Part shown: one piece after another, positions 1 through 64,000 of the stretch
Position numbering within the stretch: the first letter of the stretch is position 1
How the letters are laid out: each line of letters starts with the position of its first letter
Assembly (NCBI GenBank): GCA_027604185.1
Contig: JADGKB010000053.1
Coordinates: 33,700 to 97,699, forward strand
Source of the DNA: Boothiomyces macroporosus
Lineage: Eukaryota; Chytridiomycota; Chytridiomycetes; Rhizophydiales; Terramycetaceae
DNA length: 64,000 bases
Direction: 5' to 3'
Translations under genes and position numbers: made by a program
The notes under the pieces: generated by a model
Told to the model about the DNA's origin: nothing
The model's input: only the letters and a program-made list of their open reading frames with translations
Databases searched by the model: none

Positions 1-732
1 CGACATACCTGATATTAGTAATATAAACTTGTCTGTCAATTTCATGTATTCATCGTTAGTCTGGTTGGCTTGTTTTTTCAAGATTTCAAACTCCTTAACC
101 AGCTTATCATACTTTTCCTGCAATTCTTTTGAATCGTTCTTTTGTTCCTTGTCCAGCAATTTCAAGTATTCCTTGGTGGTTTTAGCTGCTTGCTGCTTCA
201 AAATCTTTTGTCAGTAAAAAGTACTTCAGTTTTTTCCTCATTCTTTGCCAATTCGTTAATCATATTGACAAAGCGGCTTGATTAAGTAGTGCTTACTTTA
301 GGACGAGAGACAGGAAGATTACTGACCCAGTTAAATACATGTTTCGTTGTGCTTGGAACATTTTTGAATGCAAGTACGAGTCGGTACGTGAGTCCATATG
401 CGCATGTTCCTCATGTTGATCATGTTTCTCTTGGGTTTTGAATGAGCGGTTCACGTTATCCACGAATAGGATACAAACCAAGACAAATATAATCCTCAGG
501 CCGTATTTGATTTGAGCGGCGATGGGGCTCTTGATAAAGAATTGCTTGGATTAATTCAAAATTACAATAATCTTTGTTCTGACGGAGTATGGTAATGGCG
601 CTGATTAAGTAAAGGATTACCTGTGGTTAGTGAGGAATTCACCCAACAACAATAGGAATACGAGCATCTAGCTTAGTAATGATCTACCTCTGCAACTAGC
701 ATTGCGAATACACCTTGGTACAGGATGGACAT
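1..732 (-). CDS. BAP31/Yet3-family ER membrane protein, 3' end beyond window
   Basis: ER membrane protein of the BAP31 (yeast Yet1/Yet3) family, a cargo and quality-control factor near the translocon. The spliced product begins MSILYQGVFAMLVAEML, has the family's three N-terminal hydrophobic segments, the ILFVDNVNR motif, the conserved QAQRNMYLTG block and then a charged coiled coil (LKQQAAKTTKEYLKLL). Introns lie at 668-687, 601-642, 545-565, 277-296, 205-224 and 9-28; the last exon runs off the left edge. The ATG is at 732. The 601-642 gap is either one 42-nt intron or two abutting introns of 22 and 20 nt. Family assignment is firm; the missing C-terminus hides any KKXX retrieval signal. 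Confidence 0.88.
601..642 (-). other. Two abutting mini-introns, or one 42-nt intron, in BAP31
   Basis: On the minus strand the segment reads as two complete introns with no exon between: 642-621 (22 nt, GTGAATTC...CTAACCACAG) and 620-601 (20 nt, GTAATCCT...TTAATCAG). Each has its own GT, branch-like TAA/TAAC and AG. Removing both joins LLL to APLPY in frame and matches BAP31; removing only one breaks the reading frame. Confidence 0.7.
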
Positions 733-1039
733 TTTTGAGATCAAAGAGAGATTGCAAAGACCCGAAATAGCAGCCACGTATCTACTTTATATCGCTGGTG
801 ATATTCGCACCAACCACAGTAGTATGTTTACTCTATTCACTCTTTGCCTGATTACTCTTAAGACTCGTAGAGTCTACTGCCTATCAAAGCTGGTAATATG
901 CTGCCATATTATGATTGCCTCTGAATTTCTCACCTGATGCAAGCACTGACTCTCTTGGTTTGTCAAAGTAACTGTGGGTCGACAAACATTCTCGCTGTAA
1001 TCACTACTGGCGCTGGATAAATCTTTAAAAAATTTTCAA
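733..1039. other. Intergenic spacer between BAP31 and uS17m starts
   Basis: A divergent spacer of 307 bp. An ORF on the plus strand at 725-937 overlaps the BAP31 start codon and shows no family resemblance, so I do not call it. No RNA gene or repeat is visible; it presumably holds both promoters. Confidence 0.5.
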
Positions 1040-1401
1040 ATGCCAAATCCCCGTCAGACATTTTTTGGCCATGTAATAGGGACTGCAATGCAGAAAACAA
1101 TCAAAGTCAGAGTAGAGAAAATTAAGATCCATCCTATAGTCCAAAAGGTAATGTTAGGTTAACGCAGCCGGTTCGTTCACATAAAAATTTCTTGGTACAT
1201 GACGAGGAAGAAAAATGTGTTGTTGGCGACTATGTTAAAATCGAATCATGTGAAAAACTTAGCAAACTGAAGCATTTCAAGTTGGGCGAAATTGTTAAAC
1301 CAGCTCAGAGGGCATTCGATTCGGAAGGCAACTTGCATACTCAAGGACACAAGTTCAAGACAATCCCAAAGCACTACAATCTCAATGAATATAAATTTTA
1401 A
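1040..1401 (+). CDS. MRPS17: Mitochondrial small-subunit ribosomal protein uS17m (MRPS17)
   Basis: Component of the mitochondrial ribosomal small subunit, 113 aa. The N-terminus shows the uS17 core: FFGHVIGTAMQKTIKVRVEK, then HPIVQK, the intron, and PVRSHKNFLVHDEEEKCVVGDYVKIESCEKLSKLKHF, which is the beta-barrel with the GD-V-I-C signature. One 20-nt intron at 1148-1167 (GTAATGTTAGGTTAACGCAG) splits it, and its removal closes the frame. The ATG at 1040 sits two codons before the first conserved block, with no evident long presequence, which is usual for this small protein. Its stop lies only 8-20 bp from the stop of the convergent SPRY/IQ gene. Confidence 0.9.
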
Positions 1402-1409
1402 TTTTATAA

Positions 1410-6431: not shown

Positions 6432-6937
6432 GAATAATTTTTGGAAAGAAATTATTTTAGGGATTTTATGAAATCATTTTGAAGACCAGTTTAATGAGAT
6501 TATTTTAGAGACTTGTAATACTGTTTTAGAGACTTTTAATACTACTTTAGGGACTTGTAATGAGATTATGATATTACAATAAAAACACAAGCAGTTAAAT
6601 ATAAAGCCAATTTACTTTCTAATATTGAGATTAAACAGTCCGATTAATAACCAGTTGAAAATGGTGTCTGACTCAAAATGTCTTATTTCAATTAATCATC
6701 CTGTCCACTCTGTCAAAAATGATTTAAAAATTGTTTATTGAATATACTTTTCTCTGATATCTTTCCATTGGCGCTACGATTAGTTTCCTCCTTACTCCTT
6801 TGTTCAAATAATCAAATCCTTGTTGAAAGACGTTATCGACAACGATTTCCAATACGAATGCGGAAGCGAAAATTGAAGCTACGTATCTGGAATTTCTCTT
6901 GAAAAAGACTGGATTAATTACTCCTTACTGTTGTAGA
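6432..6937. other. Intergenic spacer, SWI3-like to EF-hand-like gene
   Basis: An AT-rich divergent spacer. It holds a 21-bp tandem repeat at 6503-6565. The stretch 6845-6937 is open in the frame of the downstream gene and looks partly coding, so an unresolved 5' exon may be here. Confidence 0.5.
6503..6565. repeat. Three tandem copies of a 21-bp unit
   Basis: Copies 6503-6523, 6524-6544 and 6545-6565 share TTTAGRGACTTKTAATRM with one or a few changes each. The period is exactly 21 bp. It lies between divergent genes, 70-130 bp upstream of the SWI3-like start codon. It could be an upstream regulatory array or a neutral microsatellite. Confidence 0.75.
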
Positions 6938-7653: not shown

Positions 7654-7693
7654 GTTTATTCAAATCTCATTGGTTTTCTTGGACATACTAGAA

Positions 7694-10600
7694 TTAATAA
7701 ACTATTACGTTGGAAGGGAACAAACCAGTTTTGCCATTAAATGTACCAGTCCACCAACCAGGATCATCTCTTCCTGTAATGACGATAACATCTCCCACTT
7801 TGAATGACAATTCATCGGCCTCTGCTGCTTCATAGTTCTATATCAGTTAAAATTACATATAGTGCAGTACATCTTGGGACTTTCTTTGCAGGAGGAGGTG
7901 GTGGTTTCTTCTTTGCTGCAGCAGCACTTGCCAATGAATTTTGACTACTTGCTAAAGGTTGACTTCCCCCTAACGGTTGACTACCGCCCAATGGTTGGCT
8001 TCCACCTAAAGGCTGGTTAGCCAAATTATTTCGAGAGTTGTTGACCGAGTTTGCTTGCAAGTTTGGAATTTTGGGTTGATTACTTTGAGTATTTTGGCTA
8101 ATATTTAGATTTTGAATTTTTGGGGCTTGGTACGAGGTAGTGGTCTTTGCTTTAGTGAACAGTGATTTTTGATTTGGTCGGGAGTCTTTTGGCAATCCGG
8201 TTGGTACTCTGATTTCTGTAGTTTTACCATTATTCTTGAATGTTGGGAACTTTACACTTTGATCGGAAATGAATTTCAGTTCACAAGTGCCACCACGTTG
8301 CCATGTAGTCTTTTTAACCGTATAAGCAATTGTGTCTGTAAAGGAAATATTCAATTGTTTTCCAGTGGTCAGTGTATAGTTTTCTTTCAGAACAGTAATC
8401 AATTCAGTCTTTAGGACATTCTCGAAAACATTGTCAAAATCATCATTAATGTGAATGACAACATAATCATCACATTTTGTACTGACAGAGACACCAGACA
8501 CAGAGGAGTAGGGGAGTTTACGCTTTACCGCTTTCACATACTTGCCTTTGTTTGGGCCTTTGTCGACCTTTTCAGCTCCAATAATGAACAAATGCTTGTC
8601 AGTAAGAATGATTTCTCTCTGGCTAGGTTTAAAACTACGGTCATATTTAGTGATTGCATCGGAAAATAGCGTCTTTTCATGTTTGTTGTCTAGTTAAATA
8701 AAACATACCAATTAATGCCTTCAAGATTGGGTTATCCAATACATTCAAGTAATCACCCAAAAATTCTCTGTTAATAGAGAAACGCTTTCTTTCCTTATTG
8801 TTGACCATAACATCTGCAGCCTTTTTGCGCATTTCCAAAAAGTATTTTCTAGATTTCCATCTTCTATAAGCACGTTGGATAGTTTTGGCATAAGTGTGGT
8901 ACTTACGGTCTCTGGATTCTTCAAGCAAAAAGAGGGATTCCGGAGATTTGATAAAGACTTTTTGGCTACCGAGTTGCCATTCTTTAGCATCAATACTGAC
9001 GCTTTGCATAATAAGCCCAACCCCATCTTGAAGTCTGCCATTGAAATTTGGAAAAGTTTCTTTTGTAAGGATTGCGAACCGCTTTAAAAACTTTTCAAAT
9101 GTATTTCTGTAGCAGAACCCAGCACGACTAAATTAATGGTTATTACCGAACTTTGATATTTTCCTTCAAGTTCAGGTAGCGAACTTGATGCTCGACACGC
9201 TTTTCATCCCAATCTTTAGGACGTTTTGTTTCGTTTGGCTTAATACATCTCACGTAACTCGGGGTACACTTCATCAAAGTAGTTACTAGTTCATTTGACT
9301 GATTTCTAATTTTAAATGATACGGTGGTAGGACGTTTCTTGTCGCTTTCATCAATAACATCTGGGAATAACGCCAAAAGGAATCGGCTACATTAAAAAAA
9401 GTTACTCGGACGTTGACTGAACCAGTTGAATCAAATCCTTGAACAGCGTGTCTTTGTTGGCTTCGGTGAACCCATCGGCATCATATGTTACAGAGCCAGC
9501 ATAGTGTTGAATCAAGAATTGTTGCTGCATTCCTTTGAAATGCTTATGACTACCAACTGCACCTTGCAGCTTTTGCAAGAAGGTATTGTCAGCACCTTCT
9601 GTTACGGCATGCATGGTAGAGCACACATCATCAAGAATAGCCATAACACCAGGAGGACGCTAATATTATCACCAAGTTTACTTTAGATTCAATCAAATCC
9701 ACTACAATTTGATTGTTGAAATATTCGATAGGTGTCCAAGCAATTCCTTCTCGTTTGTATTCTTCTTGCTCACTCTTCAAAGTCAATTCAATAAAAATTT
9801 GCTGCAGTTTTTCGTTTACATAGTTGATACAGAATTGTTCAAATCCATTTTTGTGGAAAATCTAAATTAACAAAAGCATACTTCGAAGCCGAAAATATCC
9901 AGTACACCCAAGCAAAGAATTTGAGATTCTCTAAGTGTTTTTGCCAAGTTTGACATGGCACTATTGACGGCTTGAACAATCCAGTCAAACAGCCTTGTAT
10001 ACAATGCTTTTGCTAACGCGTCTCTTGTTCCCTTTGCTTGTTCTACATTCAAAGGGACATTATAAGAAGATCCTCTCTTTCCAAATCCAGTGCTAATAAA
10101 TCTGGATAGCAACTTTTGTTTCAAATCCTCTTCTTTGATTCCAAGGAGGTATGCTGGGAACGCCAATGCTTGTTCATCTCTCAAAATTGCTTTAACTCCA
10201 TCTTCTCCTTCAATAAAATCAATATTCCCCAAATGCAATATTCCACAAACTATACGAAAGATTGCCTGTTTTTCTGCTGGGGTAATTTGACAAATATCCA
10301 TTGCTCTTGACATGTCCCTGTATTCTTCCGCATCGTTGATACCATCAGCGTTATATTCACCAGAACAGGCTAAATAATTGAAATATGAAGGTTCTGTTAG
10401 GCCCAACTGTTCCTTCATCTCGGCATCTGCACCTCGACACAAGTAGTAAAAAACGTGAAAGTTTCTCTCTCCTTTTCCAGGGCCAACAACTCTACTCTAC
10501 CATTAACCTCTAGATACCTTTTCCAACAAGAAATTTGAAATCTTTCCACCCATTGGTGAGCCGCTTTTGCTAAAGTTGATTTCAAAATATTTCCCAAATC

Positions 10601-11161
10601 TTGATGAATTGTTATTTCGTAAAGTTTTCGCATTACCAAATCCTTCCAACAGAGGATTTGATTCTAGGATAATGTTTTTCACTGCTTCTACAACATTCGC
10701 AGTTGCAGCACCTCCCTTGGAACTGACATCAGAGATATAGTTCATAATCAACTTTGCGGACTCAGTTTTACCTTTCATAAGCAATACTTACCAGCACCAG
10801 ATTCACCGCTGATAATGACACACTGATTTTCTTCATCCACAATCATATTGTTGAACATCCTGTCTGCAACAGCGTAGATGTGAGGAGGATGCTCATACGC
10901 AGCACTTCCGTGATACATCTCGATTTCCTTTTCTGTAAAGTAAGGAAGCTTCTTGTACGGGTTGACGGCGACCAACGTTGGGCCTGGATAAGCGTAAATT
11001 ACCGATATAAGTAAACATTAAATCGGCGTTAATGCGCTTCTTCAAGTTGTCTGTGATTTGATCTTCGGTGACTTTCGATAACAGCACCATATCTTCTATT
11101 CCCTATGGTCAAAGGAATTTACATTTTGTGCTTGGTTTTTGGATTGCCATGCAAACGACAT
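7694..11161 (-). CDS. Class I myosin (Myo3/Myo5/MyoA type)
   Basis: Actin-based motor of endocytic actin patches, 1,089 aa in 11 exons. The motor domain has the P-loop GESGAGKTES (split by an intron), DIFGFEIF in relay position, the TEDS-site serine in the loop [12 protein letters not shown], and [12 protein letters not shown]. One clear IQ motif follows ([18 protein letters not shown]), then a TH1 lipid-binding domain, a Pro/Ala-rich TH2 region with four QPLGGS-like repeats and a PPPPP run, and a C-terminal SH3 ([15 protein letters not shown]...GWWTG...FPSNVIVY). It stops right after the SH3, so the Arp2/3-activating acidic tail of yeast Myo3/5 is absent. Introns are 19-22 nt and the codon total closes exactly. 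The ATG at 11161 is 26 bp from the divergent CDC43 ATG. A UCS chaperone gene for myosin lies at 46-48.5 kb. Confidence 0.95.
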
Positions 11162-11187: not shown

Positions 11188-12240
11188 ATGAGCGAAAAGG
11201 AATCCGAGCTGAAATTCAAGTTCCATGAAAATTACTTTAAATTGAACCTGTCGCTATTGCCCACGCATTACCAATCGACTGATTCGTCCCGGCTTACGTT
11301 GGTTTACTTTTGCCTATCAGCGATGGACCTGCTGTCGATAAAACAGGAAACAAACGCAGACTGGATATTAAACCAACTAATTGAAAGTGATGTAGAATAT
11401 GGATTCAGAGGAGGTCCGTTCATGGGTCATTTATGGGGAAGCAAAGAGCCAATCAACGAATATGACCAGGTACATTTAGCCATGACCTATACTGGATTAT
11501 TAAGCCTGATGGTTCTCGATCAAGGTAAATTTTACTTATGCAGGCTTGGATAAAATCAACCCTAAAAAACTAACAGCGTACATGTCAAAGTTTCAAAAAG
11601 AGGATGGAAGCTTCTCCCCCACAATCGATAGTACAGAGAGCGATATGCGGTTTCTATTCTGTGCGTGTGCAATCAGCTACATTTTAAATGATTGGAGCGG
11701 AATTAATATTGAGAAAGCTCTAAATTTCATCAAACAAAGTCAGAATTATGATGGTGCATTTGGATGCGCTCCAGATAACGAATCTCATGGTGGATCCACT
11801 TATTGCGCAGTTGCCGCTCTCGCCTTAATGGGGAAATTGGATACCGTAAAACAGGATAAATTGTAAGTGAATATTCATTTAGAATACATTGGTTAATACA
11901 TCGCCAGGATGAAGGGTTCCATGGTAGAATCAATAAGCCAGATGACACATGTTATGCATATTGGATTGGTGGATCTTTGAAAATGCTGGGGGCATATCAA
12001 TTTGTAGATGTTGAAAGGCTTGAAAAATTCCTAAATTCCACTCTTGGGTTAAGAGGTGGATATGGTAAAAATGATCCAAAATATCCAGATGTAATGCATT
12101 CTTACATGGGATTGGTTGGGCTAGCAATTGCTGGAAAGTATGATTTAAAGCCTTTCCATGTTGCTCTGGGTGTTTCAATCGATGCAGTAGAAAAGGCAAA
12201 GTTGAATGGATTTTGCAGCGCCTATCAAAAAATAAATTAA
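11188..12240 (+). CDS. CDC43: Protein geranylgeranyltransferase type I beta subunit
   Basis: Catalytic beta subunit of GGTase-I, which adds geranylgeranyl to CaaX cysteines of Rho/Rac GTPases; 337 aa, cytosolic, zinc-dependent. Prenyltransferase repeats are visible: GFRGGPFMG, DGSFSP, DGAFGCAPDNESHGGSTYCAVAAL, QDEGFHGRINKPDDTCYAYWIGGSLKML and LRGGYGKNDPKYPDVMHSYMGLVGLA. The zinc-ligand Asp/Cys in DDTCY and the His near the C-terminus (PDVMHS) are present. Introns at 11525-11543 (19 nt) and 11863-11882 (20 nt); removal gives 338 codons. The repeats and the short length fit CDC43 better than farnesyltransferase beta (RAM1). Its stop is 17 bp from the convergent AACS stop. Confidence 0.88.
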
Positions 12241-12257: not shown

Positions 12258-14356
12258 TCAATTTTGAAGGTCAGGTAGATTGTAATATAGTTGAAGAGAA
12301 TCTGGATTGGCCAAAGAAGTAGACGGCTTCACAGTTTGTCCAGATATAATCTTTTTAATTGCAACTTCGACTTTCTTTCCTGTTAGAGTATAAGGAATAT
12401 CAGCTATAGGTAAAATCTTGGCTGGAACATGTCGCACGGAGAGCAGCGATCGGATGGTGGATTTAATTCTTAGTACTAAATCTTCAGTGAATTCCTGGCC
12501 TTCAGCCATCTTGCAGAAAAGGATCACTCTTTCATCGTCACCCTGCTTCTGGCCAACAGCAACTGAATCAGCAACTTCATGGAATTGAACCATAATATTA
12601 TACAATTCAGCGCTGCCAAATCTGACACCATTAGGGTTTAACGTTCCGTCACTGAGTTAATAGTGTGATACCTTCTTCCTAGCATCACAATTCCACCTGT
12701 AGCAGAGTTGATAGTCAGGAAATCGCCGTGGTACCATACACCATTAACTTGGTTGAAATAAGCGCCTTGGTATTTTTCTCCCTTTGGATCATTCCAGAAA
12801 TATACTGGCATCGCAGGGAATGGCTTTGTGCATACTAGGTCCCCTGGTATATCATAAACTGGCTTTCCATGGTCTAATTTAACCAAAACTTACCATCCCA
12901 GGCTTCCACAGCCATTCCAAGACATCTACATTGGATCTCTCCTTTGTATACGGGCAAATCAACATTGTGTCCAGCGAAAAGAGAGCAAATGTCAGTACCT
13001 CCGGTAATAGAGCCCACCAAAACATCATTTTTAATTGACGCATAAATAAAATCGTAGCTCTCTGGTTTCAATGGCGACCCAGTTGAATAGATGGAATGAA
13101 TTGTTTCAACATTGTACTTTTTGTTTGGATGGAAACGAGCTTCTTGCAAAGCTTGAAAGTACTTTGCTGATGCACCAAAAGCAGTAATACTAAATTAAAT
13201 ACATATATACCCCAATTGTTCTGTAAGTTCCCAAAGTCTTGATGGTGCGGGTTTGAATGGACTTCCATCATAGGTCACAATAGTTGCACCAGCTACCGTT
13301 AGGATATATTTTACCAGCTAAACCACTGAGAAGCCAATTCCACATCATCCAACCAGCAGTGGTGTAATAGAAAAGCACGTCCTTTTCAGTTAGTCCTCCG
13401 TGAATAACATGCTCCTTCAAATGTTGAATCAAAATACCACCATGAGAATGAACAATACACTTTGGTACACCAGTAGTTCCAGAGCTGTATAAGATGGCTA
13501 ACGGATGATCAAATGGAACTTGTTCAAACACAGGTTCTTGGTCAGGAAAATCAGCCAAAAAGTCATCCATTGTGACAGCTTTTGAGATGTCAGAGACATC
13601 TACTTTTTCAACGAATGGAATGATCACGACTTTTTCCAAAGTGCTCAATCCATTCACTATTCCTTTTAATTTTGCCAAGTTGTCGTGCTGCTTGCCATTG
13701 TATATGACACCTTCAACTGACACTAATATTTTTGGTGAAATTTGAGTGAATCTATCCAACACGCCCTAATATTAAGCAGTAGTACCATTTCCCCAAAATC
13801 TGGAGAAGCTGATGACCAGATTGCACCAACTGCGGCGGCTGCCAACATGAAAGCAACCTTTGTTAAGCTGAAATTACAGATTCCGGACAATTAGGAACGT
13901 AGCCACAAATGCGATCGCCAGCCTTTATCCCAGAAGATCTAAAGGCAGCTGAAATTCTTCCAACCAAATTGGCCAATTCTTTGAAAGTCAACTTTTTCAT
14001 TTTGTCAGTTTCGCCTACTCCAACGATGGCAACCGAATCGTCTCGCTTTGGTAACAAGTTTTCCGCATAGTTTAATCGTGCCCCTTCGAACCACTTTGGG
14101 ATTTTATCAATGGAAAGGGATTCATCTATCACGCTATCAAACGGTTTGGAGCTCTTTACTTTGCAAAATTCCCAAACAGATTCCCAAAAGGAAGCGATGT
14201 TGTCAATGGAAAACTTGTACAATTCATCATAGTTGCCTATCATTAGAGCAGGTTACTAAGGCTAAGGTTGTATTTTTGGTTGATGTAAGATTGGAAAGAC
14301 TTTATCGAATTGGTTTTGGCAGTTGGCTTCCACAGTTGAATATTTTGAGCAGTCAT
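12258..14356 (-). CDS. AACS: Acetoacetyl-CoA synthetase
   Basis: Cytosolic ligase that turns acetoacetate, ATP and CoA into acetoacetyl-CoA for sterol or fatty-acid synthesis; 651 aa, the usual length of the family. The N-terminus ([27 protein letters not shown]), the family block [23 protein letters not shown], the AMP-binding loop [32 protein letters not shown] and the C-terminal [29 protein letters not shown] are all present, including the acyl-adenylate lysine. Seven introns of 20-22 nt; removal gives 652 codons. The start ATG at 14356 is followed by TAQNIQLW, in the expected place. Confidence 0.94.
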
Positions 14357-14862: not shown

Positions 14863-16880
<2,018 letters not shown>

Positions 16881-38006: not shown

Positions 38007-38049
38007 CTCTCAATGTGTTTTTTAGAATAAAAAATATACTTGCACGAAT

Positions 38050-38069
38050 CACTCATAATGACTCATAAT
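38050..38069 (+). promoter_or_regulatory. Paired ACTCAT sites before TF copy 2
   Basis: Two adjacent 10-bp units, CACTCATAAT and GACTCATAAT; the junction forms ATGACTCAT, the optimal Gcn4/AP-1 palindrome. It lies 10 bp before the first ATG of the open frame of TF copy 2. A similar pair precedes copy 3. Confidence 0.5.
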
Positions 38070-38078
38070 TAGTGTTTT

Positions 38079-43839: not shown

Positions 43840-46027
43840 ATGACTGATATATATCGAGGAAACCCGATAAAGGAATATCACTCACTCTACAAGCAATATA
43901 CCAAAGAGGAATCGGAAATGAAGAAAAAGACAGCTTCAGTCTCACTGACCAAATTCAACCAAATGATGCCAGAAGCTTTCTTGGAGGTTTCCAAAGATGT
44001 CTATGACGAAATTAACAGGAGACTTTACCAGGCAAAGGAAGTCCCCTTCTTGCCAATAAATCCGGAATACACACAAAAGCGCAATCAGGTAGCATGCTTT
44101 TAATAGGTAGGGCAGAGTCAAAATGGCAACCTTTCCGGAAATAAAGTTCAAAGAGTTTGTGTTGCAACTATTGGAAGCTGTCGAGAAAAGATATCCAGAG
44201 CTTCAAACGCTGGAAAGGGTATGTATTTCGTTTCTATTTGGAATAGAAATCTTGATGTGATAGATTAATGATAGGCGCAAAACAGAACGCCATCCACTGG
44301 CCGTAGAAGACCAAGAGAAAGAGATACCGGCTCTACCAGACGGAGAGAGGATAATTCCCGCACCAGGAGAGATGACCATTCTCAAGGAAATAGGGAGGAA
44401 GTGCTGTCTGCTAGAAATAGACAAAGAGATGTAAATGAATTTAATTCAGGATGTCGGGGCTACCAGTGAGCCAGGCCGTCGAAGAAGACCATCCACCACC
44501 GATAGATACCAATTTGCAACAAGTGTACGGAGTAAACATGAATCTCCACCAAAGGCTAGTTTAGGCGACTTGGAAAAGCTCCGTTCCGAGTATGACATGA
44601 AGATTGCTGCGCTGGAAAAGCAGATCAGCAGAAGGGATGATGAAGCCAATGAGTTGAATGACCAGGTTGTAGAATTAAAGAAATTAAATACCGAATTGAA
44701 CAAACAGATCCTACAGCTGCAAGGTGAAAAGGAAGGCTTGAAAAAAGAAATCGATTCTTATGCATCAAGATATGGGCAACTAAAACGAGATTTGGAAAAG
44801 GAAAAAAAGGTAGGTTAATACTGATTCAGGCGAATCACGAAAATGCAAAGTATGAACAGCTATACAAGCAACTGGAAATAGAGCATGATAATCTGAAAAA
44901 AGACATGAAAGTCATCCGGGAAGACTCCCTTTCCCTGATAAATGATATTCAGACCTTGAAGAAGAAGCTTTTAGTAGCAGAAGGGGAAAAGGACGCGTTG
45001 GCAAAGTCCAAGATCCTACTGAATAGCCAACTGCAACAGACAAAAGAGCAATTGGATGATATACAGAAAAGCCCTAATGTAATCTCTGTCTAATTTTAAG
45101 GCTGGTCCCAAAGATCTTCATTTGGTCTCACCCACCAGCCCAGATGATACAGAAATGGATTATCCAATATCATTTGGACCGCCAACAATCGACATGCACT
45201 ACAAGGATTTCAAAAAGTACGTCAATGAGATGAAGTTTTCTTTAAACTCTCCAACAAAAAATGCCATACTCGGTCCAATGAAAAATATTCTGCTGACATG
45301 TCAAAAAATATCCAAAGAATGCGATGAAAAGGAGGATGATCCATTATTATCGTCTAAAGAAAAAGATGCTGTATATAATACCAAATCAAAAATGTCTGCC
45401 AGTTTGTCCAGTTTGATGACCGTCACAAAAGAATACACTGCCAAGGGAGACCAAAGTGCAGCACAGCGTCTGGACGCGGAATTGCACGATTTGGATCGCT
45501 GTCTTGTGCAAGTGATTAATCTTTTGAAAGAGATAAAGAATAACACGAGAAAACGATCAACTGTAAGAAAAAGTGAAGCAAATAACGAGCCTCCACCAAT
45601 GGAGCTAACAGAATTACTGGTAAACCCAAACTTTATCTTAGGATTACCTTCAAGATGAAGCAGATGATATGGCGCTTAACATTAAGGATCTTTTACTTTT
45701 GATGAAGAATTCCAATGATTTGAATGGTTCAATTAACTTGGTCAATTCCGTCTACAACAATTTAGACAACATTATCTATGAAACCCAAGGAACATTGGAT
45801 ATCACGACTGATATAATGGAAGATGCCATTAGGAAAGCAGATTCCATGCTGGACATTATGTTTGATGTAAAGGAAGAGTTGGGAGATCTAGCCGCACGTA
45901 TAGAAAGAAATAATGTTGATAAGAATATGAAACAGAAATTGACAAATGCTACCATTGATGCCGGAAAGGTAAGGTTTACTAACGCCAGTCAGCAAAGGAG
46001 CTTTTAGATATTTTGAAATCAAAATAA
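43840..46027 (+). CDS. Spa2/GIT-family polarity scaffold
   Basis: 668 aa in eight exons. The N-terminus holds two Spa2-homology (SHD) repeats: LTKFNQMMPEAFLEVSKDVYDEINRR and RVKMATFPEIKFKEFVLQLLEAVEKRYPE, the second entered after a 22-nt intron. An Arg-rich disordered part follows, a long coiled coil (residues about 215-340: LEKQISRRDDEANELNDQVVELKKLN) and a helical C-terminus. Such proteins organise actin, formins and MAPK modules at growth sites. Introns are 19-22 nt except one of 56 nt at 44219-44274. Removal of all seven gives 669 codons. It lies 12 bp from the stop of the convergent UNC45-like gene. Confidence 0.85.
44219..44274 (+). other. 56-nt intron, longest seen in the window
   Basis: GTATGTATTTCG... 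to ...TTAATGATAG, between QTLER and AQNRTPS of the Spa2/GIT gene. Its end is the standard block, but it is nearly three times the usual size. An 18-nt piece at its 3' end (GTGATAGATTAATGATAG) resembles a mini-intron on its own, but using it alone gives the wrong frame downstream. Confidence 0.65.
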
Positions 46028-46039: not shown

Positions 46040-48506
46040 TTAAACTTTAATTCCCAAAGCGGACGTATTCTTCAAAATGATCTCACATGATTGAGCGACA
46101 GCTGGATTTTTGTAGCCCTTGTACATTTTCACATATTCCAGCGTATCAATTGGAATCATTTTGCAAAACCTTTCAGTTCCAGAAATGTTCTTAATAATTT
46201 CAGTGGCACGGTGAACCAGCTCTTCATTTTCACTAGACATCAAGTTGGCCAGGATTTCAAAGAATCGTTTGTGAGTAACTAACAGTGGAATTGCTTCTGG
46301 TTCGGATGAGAGTACTGCTAAAAGCCCAGAGGCAGCTCTCCTTGTCAAATCATCGTCATCATCAGAAAGAGCAACCATAATCTGGAGCGGTTGATCTGCT
46401 ATTTTGTCCATATATTTAGCAAACACCACAGGATGGAAGATCATATTGCACAAAGCTTCGGTGGCCGCTCTACGTATCAAATGATGATCCGAAAACTGGA
46501 GAGAGAGTAATGTCGGTAGTCCATCGAGTTGAACAATGCGATTCCTAACCACATCATCCATTCCTGCAAGATTTGTGAGGGCAAGCAAGCTTTCGAATTT
46601 GGCCAGTCCCGAATTGGAATTTACTATTACATTCATCAATGGTCGAATAACTTCTGACGCCAATTCCCCTTTGAATGCCAATGCAGGGTTGGTGGTCACA
46701 CCAACCTTAGCAATTGCATGAGCGGCAATCATTCCAACTTGGACATTAGACCCACTTGCAATTCTTAAAAGCACTTTAATTGCGCCAGACTGAACAATTG
46801 CACCCCTCAAAGGTACATTAGTAGCAATATTCAAAAAAATATTTGCTATTGCTTCCTTGAAGTTGTCACTGTCAGGTTTAATATTGACCAGCACTGGAAT
46901 AATATTTTCACCAACCAGTCGAGTAATCCTTTTGGCGACATTTTCATCATTATCTAGTGGATCTTCGTCTGGGGCATTATTGGCGAAATTGTGGAGCTTC
47001 TTCAACTGCTTTTCTTCTTCCGTGAGCTTTTTTCTGTACATGGTCAAATTTGATATGATGAGAACAATTCCGTACTGCGTAGTCCTGTCTCCATTCTGGG
47101 CCAGAGATTTTAGGCTTGCAATAAGATTTTGGTCTTTTACAATTTTTTCTTTAATCGACGGATGGACAGATAGATAAGCAAGGGCTTCAATAGCGGCAGC
47201 CTTGTTTGACGCAGAAGAACTTTTATCGTTTAAAATAGAGCTGAAAAATGTACCAATGTCTTCTTTGGTCAAGAGTTCTCTTTGGACAGTTGGATCAATT
47301 GACATGATTTTTACCAAAGCTAAAGAGGCTACTATCCTGATTCTTTCAGCGGTTTTCTTGCTTAAACATTTGAGAAGGTAGCTGGATGACATTTCTGCAA
47401 TCAATTTCTTTGCTTGTGGTAAGTTGCAGGCTGCAGACAACACTTCGATTGTTAAATACTGGATGTCTTCCGGTTCCGTGTCAATGATGTCCAAAATATT
47501 ATCCAAGAACCCTTCTTTTAGCAATATGTTTCCGCCAACTTTTGGATTGGCTTGAAATAAGGTAGAGAGTGCCATTAATCCCAATTTTTGCTGATTTGTG
47601 TCAATCATCTGGCCGATGGCGTCTTGGAATTGTCTTGTAATTCTCTCTTCATTTTCTCTTGATATTTGCGAAAAACAACAGGCTAGTATTGCGACTGTAA
47701 TTGACTGGTAATTTTCAGATTTGGAGTACAAGTTCTTTAGGATATCTAAATTTTCAATACTGAGAAAGTTCAAAACTAGCTTTTCATTCATCAGTATTTT
47801 AATTAGGCCTTTGTATGCAGAAAGTTGAACAAGTTCTGAACTTTGGTATTGGCATCTATCATAGTATACCTTGACGAGCGATCCTGATTTCTCAATGCTG
47901 TTTTGATTTCTTCGAGCATAATTTCCCAAATAAGTTGCAAAGCAGTCTGTGGCAAACTGCATGTTACTGTCATCGTTTTCCGTTAAAAGATCCTTTAAAA
48001 TAGTTGAGTCAATATTTTCCACAAAATAATCAATTACTGCTGAATAGCTGGAAATTGTCGATAGCAACTGAAGCAGTTTTAACCGCATTTCAGGCTCCCT
48101 CTCCATCTGCGCAAGAGACACCAGCATTTTGAAACTATCAATAGTCGCAAATCTTTCGCATATACCGGGGTCCTGAAGAATATATAAAAGCTTCTTGCTT
48201 GCGTCCAACCTTTTACTTGCTATTTCCATCTCGCCCATGTCTTCCAATAATGACTCTATGGAGTTGGGATTTCTCTGTTGGGCAATTTCCTTTAAAAGCA
48301 CTTCCAACATAATCTTGCCTGCTTCGCTTTCCTTTATTTGTAAGGAATTTCTAGTATCATTCAGCGCCGATATTAAATCGCCTGCTGAACGAAATGCTTT
48401 TGCACGTTTCAAAAGAAGCTCGTGATCTATTCCCGTTGAGTTTAGCTCTAGTATTAATCTTGATCATACTGTTTGTAATTTCTTCAACGTCGTCGTTTTC
48501 GGTCAT
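46040..48506 (-). CDS. SHE4: UNC-45/She4/Rng3-type myosin chaperone
   Basis: 814 aa. All-helical armadillo protein of the UCS family, which folds and stabilises myosin heads with Hsp90. The C-terminal UCS region is evident (VAKRITRLVGENIIPVLVNIKPDSDNFKEAIANIFLNIAT, LAKFESLLALTNLAGMDD, LIRRAATEALCNMIFHP). It lacks the TPR domain of animal UNC-45, as fungal She4/Rng3 do. A 22-nt intron (GTATGATC...TTAATACTAG, about 48448-48469) adds a first exon MTENDDVEEITN; removal gives 815 codons. Its ATG (48506) lies 5 bp from the first possible ATG of the divergent hydrolase gene. Confidence 0.92.
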
Positions 48507-50481: not shown

Positions 50482-53400
50482 TTAGATTGAAAGGTCCAAC
50501 AAATCGCTTCCTTTTAATACATATAATTCGCAGTCGACCTTGGCGATTGCAGTGTATTTTCTTTTAGTTTTCGTTTCTAGTTTACAGTTATAATCTTGTT
50601 AGTAACGATTTACCTCCAAAGCAATCTCCCTTTTTCAAGTCATACATGAAGTTTGCAGCGTCTTTTATAGTAACTTTTCCGCTTTTTACAAAATAAATAC
50701 AGTCTCCATTTGCGTTCTTTTCAAAGATTACCTTGTTTGCCGGCACTTTTTGAATCACAAGCAGCTCAGCAGCAGATTCCAAAACTTCAATTTTCTTGCA
50801 CTTGAAAAATGGAGATTGTTTTGAAATTTGAATGATCCGAACTTTATCATTGAGAATTAGCTTTTCGGCCTCTAGTTGGAGTCTCAGCTTTTCATCTGGG
50901 TACTTTTCGACGATCGAGTTGAAGGAGAATTTGTTCAGTTTGAGAAGCTCACAAGTTCCTGCAGCTACAATGCTGGCTGTTCTTAGGGTATTTTCAGTTA
51001 AAAGGGCAATTTCTAGAATAAGGAAATGTTACCCCCAAAATATTGTCCTGATGTCATTGTGCCAATCATTTGATCGTCAATAATAATATACACTTCGCCA
51101 AATGTAATAAAGTACATGGCATCTGCCAAATCCCCCTGAGTAATAATTTTATCTTCACTAAAGCATATTTCTGTAGATAGATTGTCTATCAGCTCCAAAA
51201 TAAAGTTGGGATTTGCCTCTTTAAAGATGGGGATTTCCAGAATTCTTGCTCTGAGTCCATCTCTAGCAAGTCGTTTTTCTACAGTTTTCTTTAAAGACTC
51301 TAATAGCTTTGGGTATTTTTTTAGTACTCCCTGAAGCTCAACTCTTGAAAGCGATAATAATTCTCCGTTCCCATCTGCTTTCACTGATGCTGTTCTTCTA
51401 GTGTCGGCCTGTAAAATAGCAATTTCTTAATTAGAGTTCGGTTACCTCCAAAGAATTGAGAGTTTGATAATTCCGAAACCACCATATCATTGATTATTAC
51501 TTGAAACTTTCCAGATGTCACAAAGTACATTTTATCTGCTAGTTGATCTTTAACTATTACAAAAGAGCCATCATAAAAATATTCTGATTTTAAGATTTTG
51601 GTGATATCCATGATTGCATCCTCCTCAATATCCTTGAAGAATGAAACTTTTTTGATCATTTCTCTGATTTTGTCGTACCGCAATCTTTCTTCCGCTACCT
51701 TTTTGAGTTTGGCTGCTGCTGTAGGAAACTGTCGAAGAATTTCTTCTAGATCAGCCCTTTGTAGGGTATAAAGTGCGCAATCGGTTTCTGTATAAATAGA
51801 TGCGGTTCTTTTTGAATCAAAGAGTAATGCGATTTCTAAGTTAATCTTTGACTACCTCCAAAAAACTGCCCCCCTTTAATGTAAGTGAGTATTTCCTTTC
51901 CAACTTTTGCAACCAAATTCCCTGAAGCAACAAAATACATGCATGACCCAATTTCGTCTTTTTCAAAAACTACAGAGTTTGGGAAAAAATGAACCAATTT
52001 CAAAGCATCAAAGATGTAGGATATTATTGAATCTTCGACTTCAACCTGCGCAAAAAAGGGCACTTCGTTCAATAAGTTTCTGATTTTGTCATTCTGGATT
52101 CGCTCCTGTGCCATCTGCTCTAGCACCTCTCTGATTTGTGGAAACTCTTCTACCGCTTCTTTGAAATTCTCTTTCGATAAATAGTACAATTCACATGTTC
52201 CGGATGCTATTACACTTGCAGTTCGTACACAATCAGTTAGTAAATCAATTTCCCCAAAATACTGCCCTGATTGTAGAACTGCAACTACTTTATCGTCTTT
52301 TACTACATCTAGGGTTCCGAACGCAATGAAATACATCCCATTTCCAATGTCGTCTTTCTTGACAATCATCGTTCCATGGTAATATCTTTCCAATTTTAGC
52401 AATTTGACTATCTTTGAAAGTGCGTTTTTGCTGGCTCCATGAAACAACGGTACTTCGCTGACCAACTTTCTAACTTTGTTTTCCATAATACGATTATCAG
52501 CTACAGAGTGTATAATTTCTCCCAATTTTGGATCATCTACAAGTACTTTGTAGAGATTAGAACGATGGAGTTCATACAGCTCGCAATTAGTTACGGCAAA
52601 GACATTGCACGTTCTCTTTGAATCCTTAAATACCAAGGACATTTCTAAATTACTATTCACTAACCTCCAAAAAATTGTCCAACCGAAAGTTGAGAGATTT
52701 TTCTCTCTTCATCGTAAATACCGACTTCTCCTGATATTATAAAAAACATTGAATCCCCTGGCATGCCTACATCGTATATTTGGTCGCCTGCTTGGAATTG
52801 TCTAATTTGAATCAACTTTGCCAGTTTTGCTACTATATCATTGGTTGCAGTTTTCAAAAAAGGTACTTTTGTGACGATATTGCGAATCTTGTCGTTGAAA
52901 ATTCTCTCGTTTGCGACTTGTAACATCTTATCTGCCAATTCTGGATGTCCAACTATAATTGTATTTAAATCATATTTGGACAAGCTATATAGAGAGCAAA
53001 ATGTTGCCGCCACAATATTCACCGTTCGTTTAGTATTCTCCATCAAAATTGCAATTTCTAGAGCATCACTTCAGGATTACCTCCAAAGTACATCCCCGCT
53101 GACATGGTGAATGTAACCACATCATTTATCACTACATTTACAGATCCGCCAATAATAAAGTACATTTCTTCACCTATCGTCCCTTTTTCAATAATCAAGT
53201 CCCCAGCATCAAACGTAACCATTCGCAATGCTGTAAAAACTTCAGAAAAGAATTCTTTGCTCGCGCCTTTGAAAAATGGCACTTCAGTCATAAAGTTCAT
53301 TTTGTCTGCTTCAATTCTTTCATCGGCCATTTCTTGCATCTTCTTGCCGACATCTGGATACCAATCTTTTATCTTGTACAGTGCTTCTCTGCTCAGAGAA

Positions 53401-56400
53401 AATAAAAAGCAGTCCGTTAGTGCCTTAATTGTTGCTGTTCTTTTTGGGTTTTTCAGCAGCAGTGCAATTTCTAAATTAATAGTCATTTGCCTCCAAAATA
53501 TTGGCCTGGCGATAATTTACCCAGCACCCTACCATTTAGATTCACTTCCAGGTTTCCCGAAGATATGAAAAACATTTGAGCACCCACAGACCCTTTTTCT
53601 ATCACTATATCATCTTTTAGAAAATGCATTGGCTTGAGCATCATCACCAGGTTAGAAATAAACCCCTTTTCTGAACTTCTGAAAAATGGAACTTGTCTTA
53701 TTAAAGGAGCGCATTCCCTCAAATAGATCGACTAAGTATTAGCTTTTGTTACCAATTTCAATGGCTGGTTCAATTCTTGGAAAATTCTTTCTTCGTCAAA
53801 GTATTTGTTATTTACATATTTCAAGTTGTAAAAGTGGAGAATTTTCTTTTTTAGTTCTCTTCCAAGCCCTTTATAGCTAATGAATTGTCCGACCTGTTCC
53901 AATTGTTCGTGAAATTTTCTTCCAGTGCTATCTAACCCAATCATATACCGGGAAATGTTTCCAACATACAGAGCGAGAAACAACGCATTCAATAGCATAT
54001 TGGCACTACGTAAATAGTATTCCTCTGGAGTTCTTGGGTATAGCGCCCCGCATCTATGTTAATTCTTAATAACCCATTATTCATCATCCTTGCAGCTGCT
54101 TCGTGAAAGAACTGGGAATAAAAGTAAGAAAAATCACTGAATTGGTCGATATTGGTGTATGTTGAAATCGAAGCAACAGTATTCCTAGCTTTAGGAATTA
54201 TTTACCAATAAATAAAAACGCAAATGAGTACTTGCAGTCCAAATACTACTTCTGAATTATAGTTGAATCCCGATTTCTTAACTTTGCCCATGATGTTGGA
54301 TATATCTACTTCTGATAAAACCATCAAATTTGGAATTAGCTGAAAATAACAAAGAGCATCTTCCACATAGATCCAGGGGAAACTACAGCACAAAATCAAT
54401 GCAACCTGTAGGTACAGGGGAAATTTGCTCTCCTTACCTCTTGAATAAAACAAACCATAGTACTTGGTGAAGATGTAGATGAGTGATAGAACAAATTGTA
54501 AATGGCTGTATATGAATATTGTTTGGTCATTAAAATCATGGGATAGGACTACAGGATACGTTATGAGGTTGAAAAGAGCAAGAGCTTGGTTTGCTGGTGT
54601 AAAAATTTGCTGAAATTTGGAATATATCCATGGAGAACTCTTCTTACGATGCTTCTTTGTCGAATTTACTTTTTTAACATTTACAGCAACTGGAGCTTCC
54701 TTTTTAATGATTGGTGGATCAGAATCGCGGTAAATGACACTTTGGATAGGTCTTGGCTCATGTGATAGTTCAGGAGAGATTTTAGGAAAGGGTGACTCTT
54801 CATCTTCTGCAAATTGGTGAATCGCTTTAGATTGATTGAAAAAGAACTGTGCATCCGAAATCGCATCTTTTAATTCACCTTTTCTCGATACAAATTCTAC
54901 AATTAATTGGTATTTACGAGGTTTTTCCCTGCTTGACGTTAGTTTCGCTTCAGACTTTGCTGCAACTACTGATATTAACCTTACTTTACCAGAACTACGA
55001 ATAATCTCCTCTTTAATCATACTCGCATTTTTCTCTAGCTGTTTCAGCTCATTTTGCAGTTCATTCATTGCCGATGCCGAGTTCTTTTTCACAAATTGAT
55101 TTGGGATATCAAGTTGAAGAAAGTCTCTATTTCCACTGAAAGTTTTTGATGCTTTTCTTCTCCGGAAATTCTTGTTGCTTCCTTCCTCACTCCCTGCAGC
55201 AGTAACAAGGTCAGATGCCGATCGATGTTGAAAATTACTGGATCTATTATTGGGAAAATCTGTTATTGATGTTTCTGGTATAGATGGATGTTCGGATTTC
55301 ATGACTGAATTCGCAATGGAAACTTCTTGAATTATTGGCGGGATGTTGACTGGTGACTTGCTTGTATGTATTTCTAATGTTGGATTTATAAACTGCTTAG
55401 TATTGGGTAAATTTCCAGCAGATGTTTCAAATATTGTTGGGGGAACAGCTATAGTCTGGTGCGGTTTGCTGGTAGAGTTTCTTGGACCATCGACAACAGA
55501 ATCTTTTTCATTTCCTTGTTCATTTTCAGTACCAATGCTGGCCTCAAAAACTATAGAATTGCTCATTTTCGACTTGATAAAGGTTTTTGCGACAGTTTCG
55601 TCTCTTACGTTTAAAATTTTGTCGTTGCACTTTATGTCCAAAGAAACATCCTGTAGATTAAAGCTAACAATTTGATCGTTGGTTGGAAACTCTCCATTGC
55701 TGGTATTGAGCATATTGTTTGAGCGAGTTGTCATGAAAGATCCATTGATAAAGTGCGACGTATGATAATTTGAAAATGATGCATGAATTGAAGATTTTAT
55801 ATCATCAATTTCAGAGCCGTTCGACACTGAAGACACCTGGTCTGTTGAAGTGTAATTTTTGTTACTGGCAAGTGCGGACGGTTTCAGTAATCTTCTTACA
55901 GCAGACACCCTTTGTTTTTTTATAGAAGAGCTTCTTAATGGCTCATTTTCATTAAAACTCTTATCTATTGGTAATCTTCTCAGTGAAGTATATGGCAGGA
56001 TATCAATCTTGTTCTGTGCCATCCGTTTTAGTGCTAATTTCGTAACCATGCTTGATACTGACGGGTCAATATCCATCACTTTTCTGAATTCCGTTCTATT
56101 CAAAGAATAGACAATACAATTGGCTGCTGCTTCTACTGTAGCTGTTCGTTTCACATCTCCAAAAAGTAGAGATATTTCTAGTTAAACTTGTTCCTACCTC
56201 CGAAATAGTCCCCAGACTTCAAACTCGATACCCGGATTCCTTTAATATATACGTTCATTTTACCCTTGGCAATGAAATACATTTGATCGCCAGTCGATCC
56301 TTCTTCTATAACAACATCCTCTTTCAAGAAATGTTCTACTTGAAGACCACAAACAACTTTAGACATGATTTCAAACGATGCGTTTTTTAGAAAGGGTACT

Positions 56401-57691
56401 TTGAAGAGAAAGCTTTGGTAGTTTCTGAGGAGTATGGACTAGTTAATATGACTGTACTAATTTCAGAGGTGTGTTAAGTTCCCTTAGTATCTTTTCCTCG
56501 TCAAAATATTTGGAATCCGTGTATTTAAAATGGTAGTATTCAATCATTCGTTCATGTATTTCCTTTCCAACTCCTTTGGCGAGCACAAACTGATCAACCT
56601 CCTCCAGTTTTTCACGGAATTCCCTGCAAGGTGTATTTAAACTGAGCAAATAAATTGTGATGTTCGCCATAAATAGCGATGAAATCACTGTGGACACAAC
56701 TATATGAACTGTGTATTGGTATCCTGCTCCCTGTGGTCGCACACCCCATCTACATTAACAAATCGTACTCTGACCCAAATATAAAACTTAAACCTTCGAA
56801 TAACAAAATGTAGAGGGGTCTTTTTAAGTTCAAGCTAAATTGGTTGATGAAATTGTTCACACAAATATAAAAGTGACTATATAAATAGGAATTTACACAT
56901 AGTAGAATGCAATTACAAGTAGTACAATTCCGTTGATTATTGCCAAGCTTAGCGATGATTTTCTAAACTGGTCAATGTATTCCAGTAATAAAAACGTCCG
57001 TGTCGTGTCCCAAAGTAACACAAAAGTAGGGATTGTATTGAACAGCAAGATCCAATAATATCTGCTATCCGTTAGTGCGATTGGTGTAATTATAAATACA
57101 ATTGGAAGACACGTCAAACTGCAGATGATTACACATTTGCTTTTCCTATAATACTGCCGTACTTGCTTTGGCTCCATATCTATCGTAGAATCAATCACTA
57201 TTCCAGAATTCAACTTGATTATCGAGTCCAGGAATACAATTGCAGTCAAAAACACTGACAGTATTGGCAATATATAATTGTACTCTGAGAACCCTATTCC
57301 TAAAGGTAACATGAAAATATAAATCATATGGAATCCCGCATAGAGAGTGTTCCATAATTGCGAAAAGAGGGAGAACGGATGAATCAAACATTCGTAACTA
57401 TGAAGTGGTATATAATTATGAATCCCGTTTCTGATATTGAATGGGTGTAATCGAAACTCTTCTATACTGTTGGGAATGAATTTGGAGGTATCGCCGGTCT
57501 CTTCGAAATCATATCGCGCTGGGTTAATAGCGGGTACCTCGATTCAAATCTTCAACAAATAATTTCAGGTTTTGTTGGTCCTGTTTGATTGTTGTTATCA
57601 GAGGAGCTGCTTTTTCCTTGTCCAGTTCTTCTAATTCAAGTCTAATATTTTTTAGTTTTTGTTTCAGGGTGTCTATTTCGTTTCGTATCAT
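50482..57691 (-). CDS. Giant dual CNG-channel-like protein with nine cyclic-nucleotide-binding domains
   Basis: 2,302 aa in 16 exons; removing 15 introns (19-23 nt) gives 2,303 codons exactly. Layout: short coiled coil (1-60); channel module 1 with about six membrane helices, S6 and C-linker (about 100-385); CNBD-A (about 390-520); a 440-residue disordered linker; channel module 2 (about 985-1190) with C-linker to 1268; then eight CNBDs of about 129 aa each to the end. The long ORF 54202-56154 physically joins CNBD-A, linker and module 2, so this is one gene. Phosphate-binding cassettes read FGEIALL...KRTAT (Glu and Arg kept) in most; the last (FGDYNCKLE) is degenerate. S4 segments lack the regular Arg ladder, and neither pore loop has GYG. 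ATG at 57691. I know no named family with this architecture. Confidence 0.88.
53471..53490 (-). other. GC-AG mini-intron, 20 nt
   Basis: Reads GCAAATGACTATTAATTTAG on the minus strand, between GGAG and AAATTGCA. Removing it restores Y-F-G-E-I-A, the phosphate-binding cassette of the first CNBD of the array. Homologous introns in the other repeats have GT donors, so this is a donor change in one copy. Confidence 0.85.
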
Positions 57692-62599: not shown

Positions 62600-62813
62600 A
62601 AACTATTTTTTATCTCTTGCTCGAATTCAGGTTTTATGAGAGGAAATCTGAACTCGATTTATCACTAGTTTCAGAGAAATTCCAAGTAGAAGCTAACCAT
62701 AGCAATTCCTTTGTAATATTCCGTGTGGTAATATTATTGAATTTTTGATTGATACTTTTGAAATATCACAAGCGCGGACGGCAAAATAATTTGTTCCTAA
62801 AACTAAAAAAGAA

Positions 62814-63859
62814 ATGAGTGATATAAAAATCAGATCAAGGACTACTTCAAAGCAGCCATTACTTAAGCCAGAACAATGCGATAAACCAATAAAACTAACT
62901 TGCTATCAAGATTACAAGCAGTTTAGCAATCATGAAAATTCAATCAACATATACACTACTACAAAAAAGTATGCTCCTCATTGGTTTGGTGATACGGATT
63001 ATATTTTGCATGGGTACAGGAGACAAACAAATTCCTTTAGGGGCTGCATGCTATCGCTCACGTATCTCCACAACGAAACTGGGAACGTTTATACTCACTT
63101 GATTGGTCTGCTAACCATCTTTCCATTGATTTACTTTACCTTTTTTCAATGGATGACTAGTGAATCAACCAGTATTTACGATTACTTGGCCATCACACCG
63201 TTCTTTATTGGATCTATTGTTTGTCTAGGATGTTCAACAGTCTTTCATTTATGTACTTGTCATTCTCGACATGTATCTGTTGCTTGCAACAAAGCTGACT
63301 ATGTTGGGATAGTATTTTTACAAGTGTAAATATTGTTAATTTAGTGGGTCTTTTGTACCATGTTTATACTATGGTTTCTATTGCGATTCTTTCTATAGAA
63401 GCTTGTACTTGTTTGCAATTAGTATATGTGGTGTAGCAACTGTAATTATTGCTAATCTAGATTTATATTACTTTGGGGCACAAGTATGCTACTCCACAAT
63501 ATCGATGGTTACGCACTGGTGTATTTACTCTCTTGGGATCTTTGGGAATTGTCCCGCTGTTTCATCATGTATGGAGATATGGTGTTAATATGGCGCTAGA
63601 GTCATTTGCGGTAGAGTATGTGTTGATGATGGGGGCTTCGTACCTCGTTGGAGCTTTTATATATGCCTATCGCATACCAGAACGTTGGATTCCGCATGCC
63701 TTTGACATATTTGGTCATTCACATCAAATATGGCATTTGTGTGTTTACTCTGGTGTAATAAGTCATTATTTTGCTGTCTTTAGAATGTACTATTGGTGGC
63801 ACAACAATAATCCTCAATGCCTAGTGTCTGACCAGGAAATGATTAATTGGTTCAACTAA
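62814..63859 (+). CDS. PAQR/adiponectin-receptor-like membrane protein (Izh type)
   Basis: 335 aa in three exons, seven membrane helices. PAQR motifs: HNETGNVYTHLIG, the zinc-site STVFHLCTCHS and later FDIFGHSHQIWH (H-x-x-x-H), and RWLRTG. Introns of 19 nt each: one after FLQ (GTAAATATTGTTAATTTAG) and one after GVAT (GTAATTATTGCTAATCTAG); removal gives 336 codons. Yeast Izh proteins take part in zinc and sterol signalling, some as ceramidases. Confidence 0.92.
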
Positions 63860-63949
63860 TAAAGGGGAATTATGAATTGGTTGTACTTTCTAACCATCTC
63901 ACTGATAATCAAAACATAAAACCTACCTTTAGATTTCAAAAAAGGAATG

Positions 63950-64000
63950 CTCTTTGTCGGGGAATCGAACCCCGGTCTTCCGCGTGACAGGCGGAGATAC
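63950..64000 (-). tRNA. tRNA-Asp(GTC), 5' part beyond window
   Basis: Minus strand. Anticodon arm CCGC-CTGTCAC-GCGG gives anticodon GTC; T arm CCGGGGTTCGATTCCCCG and 3' acceptor half GACAAAG plus a G discriminator are present. The 5' acceptor half and D arm are outside the window. On the minus strand a T-run follows the 3' end, as expected for Pol III termination. Confidence 0.87.

Follow-up and report, generated by a model that had tools for sequence, protein, structure and literature searches.

Introns of about 20 nucleotides predominate in gene models of the chytrid fungus Boothiomyces macroporosus

We analyzed a 64,000-nucleotide (nt) stretch of the nuclear genome of the chytrid Boothiomyces macroporosus, a cultured saprobe of the Terramycetaceae (Chytridiomycota, Rhizophydiales), and the very short introns that appear to interrupt its genes. 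The stretch, hereafter the window, covers bases 33700-97699 of contig 53 in an assembly of 15,203,306 bases and 216 contigs (GCA_027604185.1). A CDK11-like kinase gene at 29869-30949 carries a 19-nt intron, GTAATAAATATTAATCTAG, at 30480-30498 (+ strand). A 20-nt intron, GTAATGTTAGGTTAACGCAG, lies at 1148-1167 (+) in a gene that an earlier note on this DNA had named uS17m, and which our own model missed; a 19-nt intron lies at 11525-11543 (+) in a gene at 11188-12240 that the same note had called CDC43. Together with a 20-nt GC-AG intron, GCAAATGACTATTAATTTAG, at 53471-53490, these were the four examples offered there, and all are present as written, the last on the minus strand. Other genes in the window carry several such introns each: a myosin-I gene (7667-11161, -; 11 introns of 19-22 nt), an acetoacetyl-CoA synthetase (AACS) gene (12258-14356, -; 7 introns of 20-22 nt), a P4-ATPase gene (24438-27949, -; 8 introns of 19-21 nt) and an unnamed gene (43840-46027, +; 8 introns of 18-23 nt, the shortest of 18 nt at 44257-44274). 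An UNC-45-like gene (46040-48506, -) has one intron of 22 nt at 48448-48469.

The GC-AG intron falls within a large channel-like gene (50482-57691, -) with 16 introns, 15 of them 19-23 nt long and one a 37-nt call (50577-50613). This gene had been read as a channel protein of 2,302 residues. A long gene stands in our model, with 2,290 codons including the stop, but only when the start penalty is raised; the default splits it into 397 and 1,874 codons with a start at 56366. Its repeated blocks presumably resemble cyclic-nucleotide-binding and channel segments, and a Pfam search with a 659-residue open frame of the gene returned no match.

We then followed intron length across a larger sample with a gene finder that used neither homology nor RNA input and allowed introns of up to 300 nt. 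The 264 kb of DNA comprised the window plus a 10-kb stretch from each of contigs 1-20. The finder took codon usage from long open frames and admitted GT..AG introns under a flat 10-300 nt length prior, with no motif. This first pass made 216 calls, 71 of them of 19-22 nt; with nine control dinucleotide pairs no length peak arose, and the same range took in only 3-7 of 173-220 calls. Later rounds learned the signals first and then the lengths: with signals learned but lengths not, 177 of 253 calls fell at 18-24 nt, and with both learned, 331 of 355. In the last round, which let introns abut and softened the motif, 18-24 nt accounted for 346 of the 366 introns and 18-23 nt for 345. The short introns peaked sharply, with 4 at 18 nt, 71 at 19, 142 at 20, 90 at 21, 28 at 22, 10 at 23 and 1 at 24. 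Nearly all introns in the sample are thus no longer than about 23 nt, the narrow band that marks ultrashort-intron genomes. Of 79 complete genes, 69 contain introns (mean 3.4), and coding sequence holds 1.9 introns per kb; extrapolated to 15.2 Mb, this gives about 20,000 tiny introns.

Within the window alone, the final model placed 100 of 104 introns at 18-24 nt (one of 18 nt, 17 of 19, 48 of 20, 23 of 21, nine of 22 and two of 23), the other four calls being 37, 48, 103 and 114 nt long. The earlier count of about 120 introns in the window, all but two of 19-23 nt, holds as to the peak at 20 nt; our model gives 104 introns, four of them longer, and missed some genes.

Twenty of the 366 final calls, at 37-261 nt, may include real longer introns, and some have a plausible donor and branch site. 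Lengths would then be bimodal, with a sizeable conventional class of 50-300 nt missed or scattered by the predictor, whose 300-nt maximum, reliance on neither homology nor RNA, and coverage of 264 kb out of 15.2 Mb leave room for such a class. We consider this improbable. A second peak was absent at every length from the flat-prior start, and a pattern scan (below) found nothing comparable between 24 and 69 nt. Moreover, three calls of 57, 43 and 39 nt proved to be exact sums of whole tiny introns, with zero bases between them. A 64-nt call in locus L008 (8083-8146) was rejected: a 19-nt intron there keeps the frame open and reads INPRDWKQASENIFNMLKPGGLLLFRDYG, and it is the better choice because it restores a stretch that is found in METTL6 and missing from the 64-nt version.

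To count introns independently of gene models, we scanned for their signals directly. The pattern GTA[AT]..[CT]TAA[CT]N0-3AG with a total length of 19-22 nt occurs 54 times in the window, as against about 3.9 times in 10 first-order Markov shuffles, and every length from 24 to 69 nt gives at most 5 matches. Scanning the window for patterns also gave a small unexplained excess at 13 nt (5 vs 0.4; 14 vs 6.2 for a looser pattern) and an unexplained bump at 56 nt (20 vs 8.2). On both strands of the whole genome, GTAWN7TTAAYNNAG, which is one 20-nt arrangement of donor, branch site and acceptor among several, was matched 912 times compared with 87 for its mirrored control; with the spacer lengthened by 6 nt, it was matched 45 times compared with 86 for its own mirror. 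We also counted GTA, T[AG]AY and AG at every spacing over both strands of the 264 kb, letting the branch A fall anywhere from position 8 to 25 and from 4 to 11 nt ahead of the intron end, and compared the counts with mirrored sequence. This model-free grid held a single isolated cluster, with observed and mirrored counts of 72/18 at (14,5), 64/13 at (14,6), 69/12 at (15,5) and 55/9 at (15,6); (15,4) came next at 21/8, and (16,6) was weak at 24/18. The grid bears out the earlier description of a branch site fused with the acceptor. Along with the 912 to 87 pattern count and the 346 of 366 calls, it also supports the claim that such introns are used genome-wide.

Next, we asked what homologous proteins look like where the segments are removed. 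Homologues that carried the segments as coding sequence would have spoken against introns; instead, of the 18 junctions spanned in myosin-I, AACS and UNC-45, 17 are gapless in most or all of the homologues compared. In myosin-I, 10 of 11 junctions are spanned among the 120 homologues listed, and at nine of these ten, 75-98% of the spanning homologues show no gap within six residues. All seven AACS junctions are gapless in 114-119 of 119-120 homologues; only one of these introns has a length divisible by three, so that each of the other six would shift the frame if kept. The single UNC-45 junction is gapless against Boothiomyces sp. JEL0866 and Terramyces sp. JEL0728; the protein encoded at 46040-48460 (-) is 85% identical to the former, 79% to the latter and 100% (rounded) to the deposited HK103_005632. 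The deposited protein already lacks the 22-nt segment and is identical to the spliced model at the joint, and therefore at least that intron is in the public annotation. The spliced CDK11-like protein aligns without a gap to CDK11B across WYR|SPELL. Models of AACS, P4-ATPase, MCM7, MGM101 and U2AF65 likewise align to solved structures; for the last four, the alignment spans most of the domains.

Among the 120 matches listed for spliced myosin-I, none bears a Boothiomyces or Terramyces name, and other chytrids are present. Public models of many-intron genes such as this one may be broken. The missing names are unsafe as proof of faulty annotation, the database being clustered and length-limited and many of its rows unnamed.

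The short introns share a consistent anatomy. All 346 end in AG and start with GT (343) or GC (3), borders that the model imposes; the acceptors are TAG in 225, CAG in 72, AAG in 47 and GAG in 2. The donor is GTA in 301 of 331 short introns, most frequently GTAA, in agreement with the earlier consensus. In 246 of the 331, T[AG]AY occurs just once with its A located 4-9 nt before the end, and in 216 of these the A is at position 14-16 and 5-6 nt from the end. The two spacings, both narrow, vary independently (51/46, 52/43 and 14/10; p = 0.87 over the 216 introns) and add up to the total intron length. The sequence shows a branch motif, YTNAY, fused with the acceptor, its A mostly at 14 or 15, less often at 16, and 5 or 6 nt before the last base. 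We found no clear signal of selection against stop-free introns of 3n length: an in-frame stop occurs in 66 of 88 21-nt introns, as against 60.6 in shuffled bodies.

Several splicing components were also identified in the genome, and the U1, U2 and U6 small nuclear RNA (snRNA) genes look canonical. U2 snRNA, present in two copies, scored 142 bits, over the cut-off (GTGTAGTATCT / GTGTAGTATC), with a GTAGTA branch-pairing element; U6 snRNA scored 62 bits, over its cut-off, with ACAGAGA on the opposite strand of the printed piece. U1 snRNA carries ACTTACCTG near its 5' end, and ATACTTACCTGG. Genes for U2AF65, SF1, Slu7 and Prp18 are present and, in our models, have introns of 19-24 nt themselves. 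The earlier note had pointed to U2AF, SF1 and U2 as places where changes might lie; U2AF65, SF1 and U2 snRNA are all there, the last with its GTAGTA element. Because Slu7 and Prp18 are present, we rejected the idea that the tiny introns stem from a loss of second-step factors. The borders (GT-AG or GC-AG), the branch motif complementary to U2 GUAGUA and the major snRNAs U1, U2 and U6 are those of U2-type introns.

These data point to ordinary U2-type spliceosomal introns that have probably been shrunk to near-minimal length across the genome, a reading to which we assign a probability of roughly 0.95, and the earlier interpretation of tiny spliceosomal introns in a fungal, hence opisthokont, host is supported. 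As the analysis was of genome sequence only, one could suppose instead that the segments are cut from DNA, like the internal eliminated sequences of ciliates, or that they are sequencing errors or frameshifts of decaying pseudogenes. We regard this as highly implausible: the segments have spliceosomal borders and a branch motif at fixed spacing, the snRNA genes are present, the deposited UNC-45 protein omits one such segment, and hundreds of cases follow one consensus.

Apart from the longer calls, several observations weigh against U2-type introns of near-minimal length as a full account. Every intron described here is inferred from the genome sequence alone. At residue 764 of myosin-I, only 6 of 119 homologues align across the junction with no gap, and the last of the 11 junctions of this gene lies outside the homologue alignments. 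T[AG]AY is missing from its expected place in 79 of 331 short introns and occurs several times in 6, in a tally that itself rests on introns picked by a model trained on the acceptor region. Retention would not be specially exposed, as an in-frame stop arises in 207 of 331 introns, compared with 205 for shuffled bodies. U1 scored 68.8 bits, slightly under the Rfam cut-off of 69.5, and U2AF65 searched exon by exon scored 230.7 against an NCBIfam cut-off of 310.3; the spliced U2AF65 model aligns to U2AF65 structures. Save for these exceptions, the predicted introns pass every sequence test made.

In such an intron, U1 and then U6 would pair with the donor, and U2 with the branch motif, which would leave about 2-6 nt between the pairings; U1 and U2 small nuclear ribonucleoproteins (snRNPs) would therefore hardly fit on one intron together. 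Most likely, U1 would pass the donor to U6 before or during the docking of U2. The acceptor would be the AG 3-4 nt past the branch A, a distance with no space for a polypyrimidine tract.

We also observed, beyond what the earlier note had described, intact introns of about 20 nt that abut with no exon between them, up to nine in a row, in loci L035, L008, L010, L036, L037 and L039 and in the window. The three long calls that resolved into sums are a triple intron of 3 x 19 nt in a METTL2/6-like gene (L008 8632-8688; 57 nt), made of three unlike but complete units, a double intron of 21+22 nt in MCM7 (L010 89-131; 43 nt) and a double intron of 20+19 nt in L036. Some longer intervening sequences look like concatemers because these calls equal whole sums of tiny introns. 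In the window, the model placed one pair at 601-642 (-), a former 42-nt call at 579-620 that resolved once abutting was allowed into a first intron of 22 nt, GTGAATTCCTCACTAACCACAG, at 621-642 and a second of 20 nt, GTAATCCTTTACTTAATCAG, at 601-620. The longest array has nine units over 179 nt (21, six of 20, 19 and 19) in an MGM101-like gene (L035 1490-1668, near position 351,600 of contig 1), and five of its units are nearly identical. The spliced MGM101-like protein is gapless through GGWAL|VPRG against solved MGM101; the printed structure alignments of MCM7 and METTL6 end short of the array joints.

Intron length in this fungus may be quantal. A preference of the machinery for about 18-24 nt would let intervening DNA lengthen in whole units only, and arrays of complete introns would then be excised one after another via regenerated AG|GT sites. 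We consider it an evenly poised proposal that the spliceosome handles only about 18-24 nt, and that longer intervening sequences are head-to-tail arrays, removed singly and growing by tandem duplication of introns of about 20 nt. AG|GTA joints are present in arrays, and near-identical array units on contigs 8 and 1 can be cited for tandem duplication of whole introns. It is also possible, though on the doubtful side, that arrays are single longer introns excised in one step, with inner splice signals decayed or with accidental tandem repeats. The nine-unit array indeed contains a 20-nt tandem repeat (5.6 copies, 94% match), and its five inner units lack T[AG]AY; a looser pattern of three GTA starts 19-22 nt apart gave 25 matches (15 sites), against 10 in mirrored sequence. 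However, each array unit is 19-22 nt long with its own GTA and AG, and the three units in L008 are complete yet dissimilar. At 12 of the 15 three-GTA sites, each match has the branch motif in both of its units (a single sequence that lies on two contigs accounts for two of the 12), and a pattern with the branch motif in both neighbours gave 20 matches (19 sites), compared with 0 mirrored. Arrays of abutting introns are an added and less certain novelty than the tiny introns themselves.

Some matches recur at constant offsets: in C2 at 282417/325013 and 297048/339644 (about 42.6 kb), in C10 at 139384/193040 and 178323/231979 (about 53.7 kb) and in C18 at 83410/131020. One match is shared between contigs (C1:393103 and C173:12185). 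These recurrences may reflect large duplications, or both haplotypes having been assembled.

Elsewhere in the window, in the segments 36386-41458 (+) and 41483-43465 (-), two genes with matches to Zn2Cys6 or weak matches to fungal transcription factors enclose a third gene that has no Pfam match, and a gene for an M36 fungalysin-like peptidase adjoins. The matches, Zn2Cys6 above the cut-off, fungal transcription factor slightly below it, and fungalysin, are consistent with a fungus. A 21-nt tandem repeat of 2.9 copies, TATTTTAGAGACTTGTAATAC, lies between called genes at 6501-6561. ARAGORN with the bacterial code and Rfam at its gathering score gave no matches in the window.

Ultrashort introns are known from other lineages. 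Chlorarachniophyte nucleomorphs have introns of 18-21 nt, mikrocytids of 16-17 nt and heterotrich ciliates of 15-16 nt, with genome reduction proposed as one cause (PMC10245619). The earlier likeness to nucleomorphs and heterotrichs stands, and mikrocytids can be added to it (PMC10245619). Nucleomorph introns are similarly numerous and narrowly spread, and nearly the same in length range (PMC10245619), but a nucleomorph is a relict endosymbiont nucleus, and the introns described here lie in the 15.2-Mb nuclear genome of a fungus. In nucleomorphs, splicing is said to be less efficient for introns of 21-27 nt (PMC5014332), whereas 21-22 nt is common here. Mikrocytid introns are likewise very uniform and ultrashort; in contrast, these organisms are obligate parasites, with 224 introns in M. 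mackini and 17-19 spliceosomal proteins identified (PMC10245619).

The heterotrich Stentor has many thousands of introns, as here, and its branch A is nucleotide 10 in introns of 15 nt and nucleotide 11 in those of 16 nt, also 5 nt before the end (PMC9505925). The branch-acceptor spacing therefore appears to be common to both and the donor-branch spacing to differ, being about 4 nt longer here. The branch motif is clear in Boothiomyces, whereas Stentor is described as having no strong consensus; Slu7 and Prp18 are present here but are listed as not found in the Stentor table (PMC9505925), an absence not known to define the ultrashort-intron group.

Among fungi, the generalization that introns measure at least 50 nt sets the lower limit too high: a paper from 2025 includes a 20-40 nt intron bin for Cryptococcus (PMC11913375), for which the mean is given as 63 bp, a value mentioned as relatively short in a survey of 644 fungal genomes (PMC8476143). 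In the sources seen, nothing of this size appeared as a genome-wide norm. Another 2025 paper calls a 23-nt intron among the shortest known (PMC12316389). Our literature search, of partial coverage, found no report of such introns in fungi or chytrids. The ultrashort-intron condition thus appears to be new in a fungus, although the condition itself is known from other lineages.

If their units were removed in succession, as we propose, the arrays would resemble stwintrons and zero-exon recursive splicing, in which adjoining or nested units are excised one by one. Stwintrons, however, are nested, with one intron splitting the signal of another, and the shortest in a Hypoxylon set is 114 nt (PMC9024468), whereas here intact units abut. 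In the arrays that we read by eye, units met at AG|GT, and we saw no split splice signal; nested introns were not sought systematically.

Overall, the tiny introns of this chytrid appear to approach the lower limit of length known from any organism, and our analysis suggests that this extreme is found among fungi as well. For annotation they carry a warning, since aligners and gene finders with a larger minimum intron would break most genes here. The lineages with ultrashort introns that we met in the literature comprise nucleomorphs, parasites and giant ciliates (PMC10245619), and a fungus extends this range. That U1, U2 and U6 occur alongside U2AF65, SF1, Slu7 and Prp18 suggests that a spliceosome of conventional appearance can handle introns of 19-22 nt; how 20 nt could accommodate both U1 and U2 snRNPs thereby becomes a testable question. 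If arrays are removed unit by unit, they would offer a view of ongoing intron multiplication and, if the quantal proposal is true, a route to it in which the intron itself is the minisatellite repeat unit.

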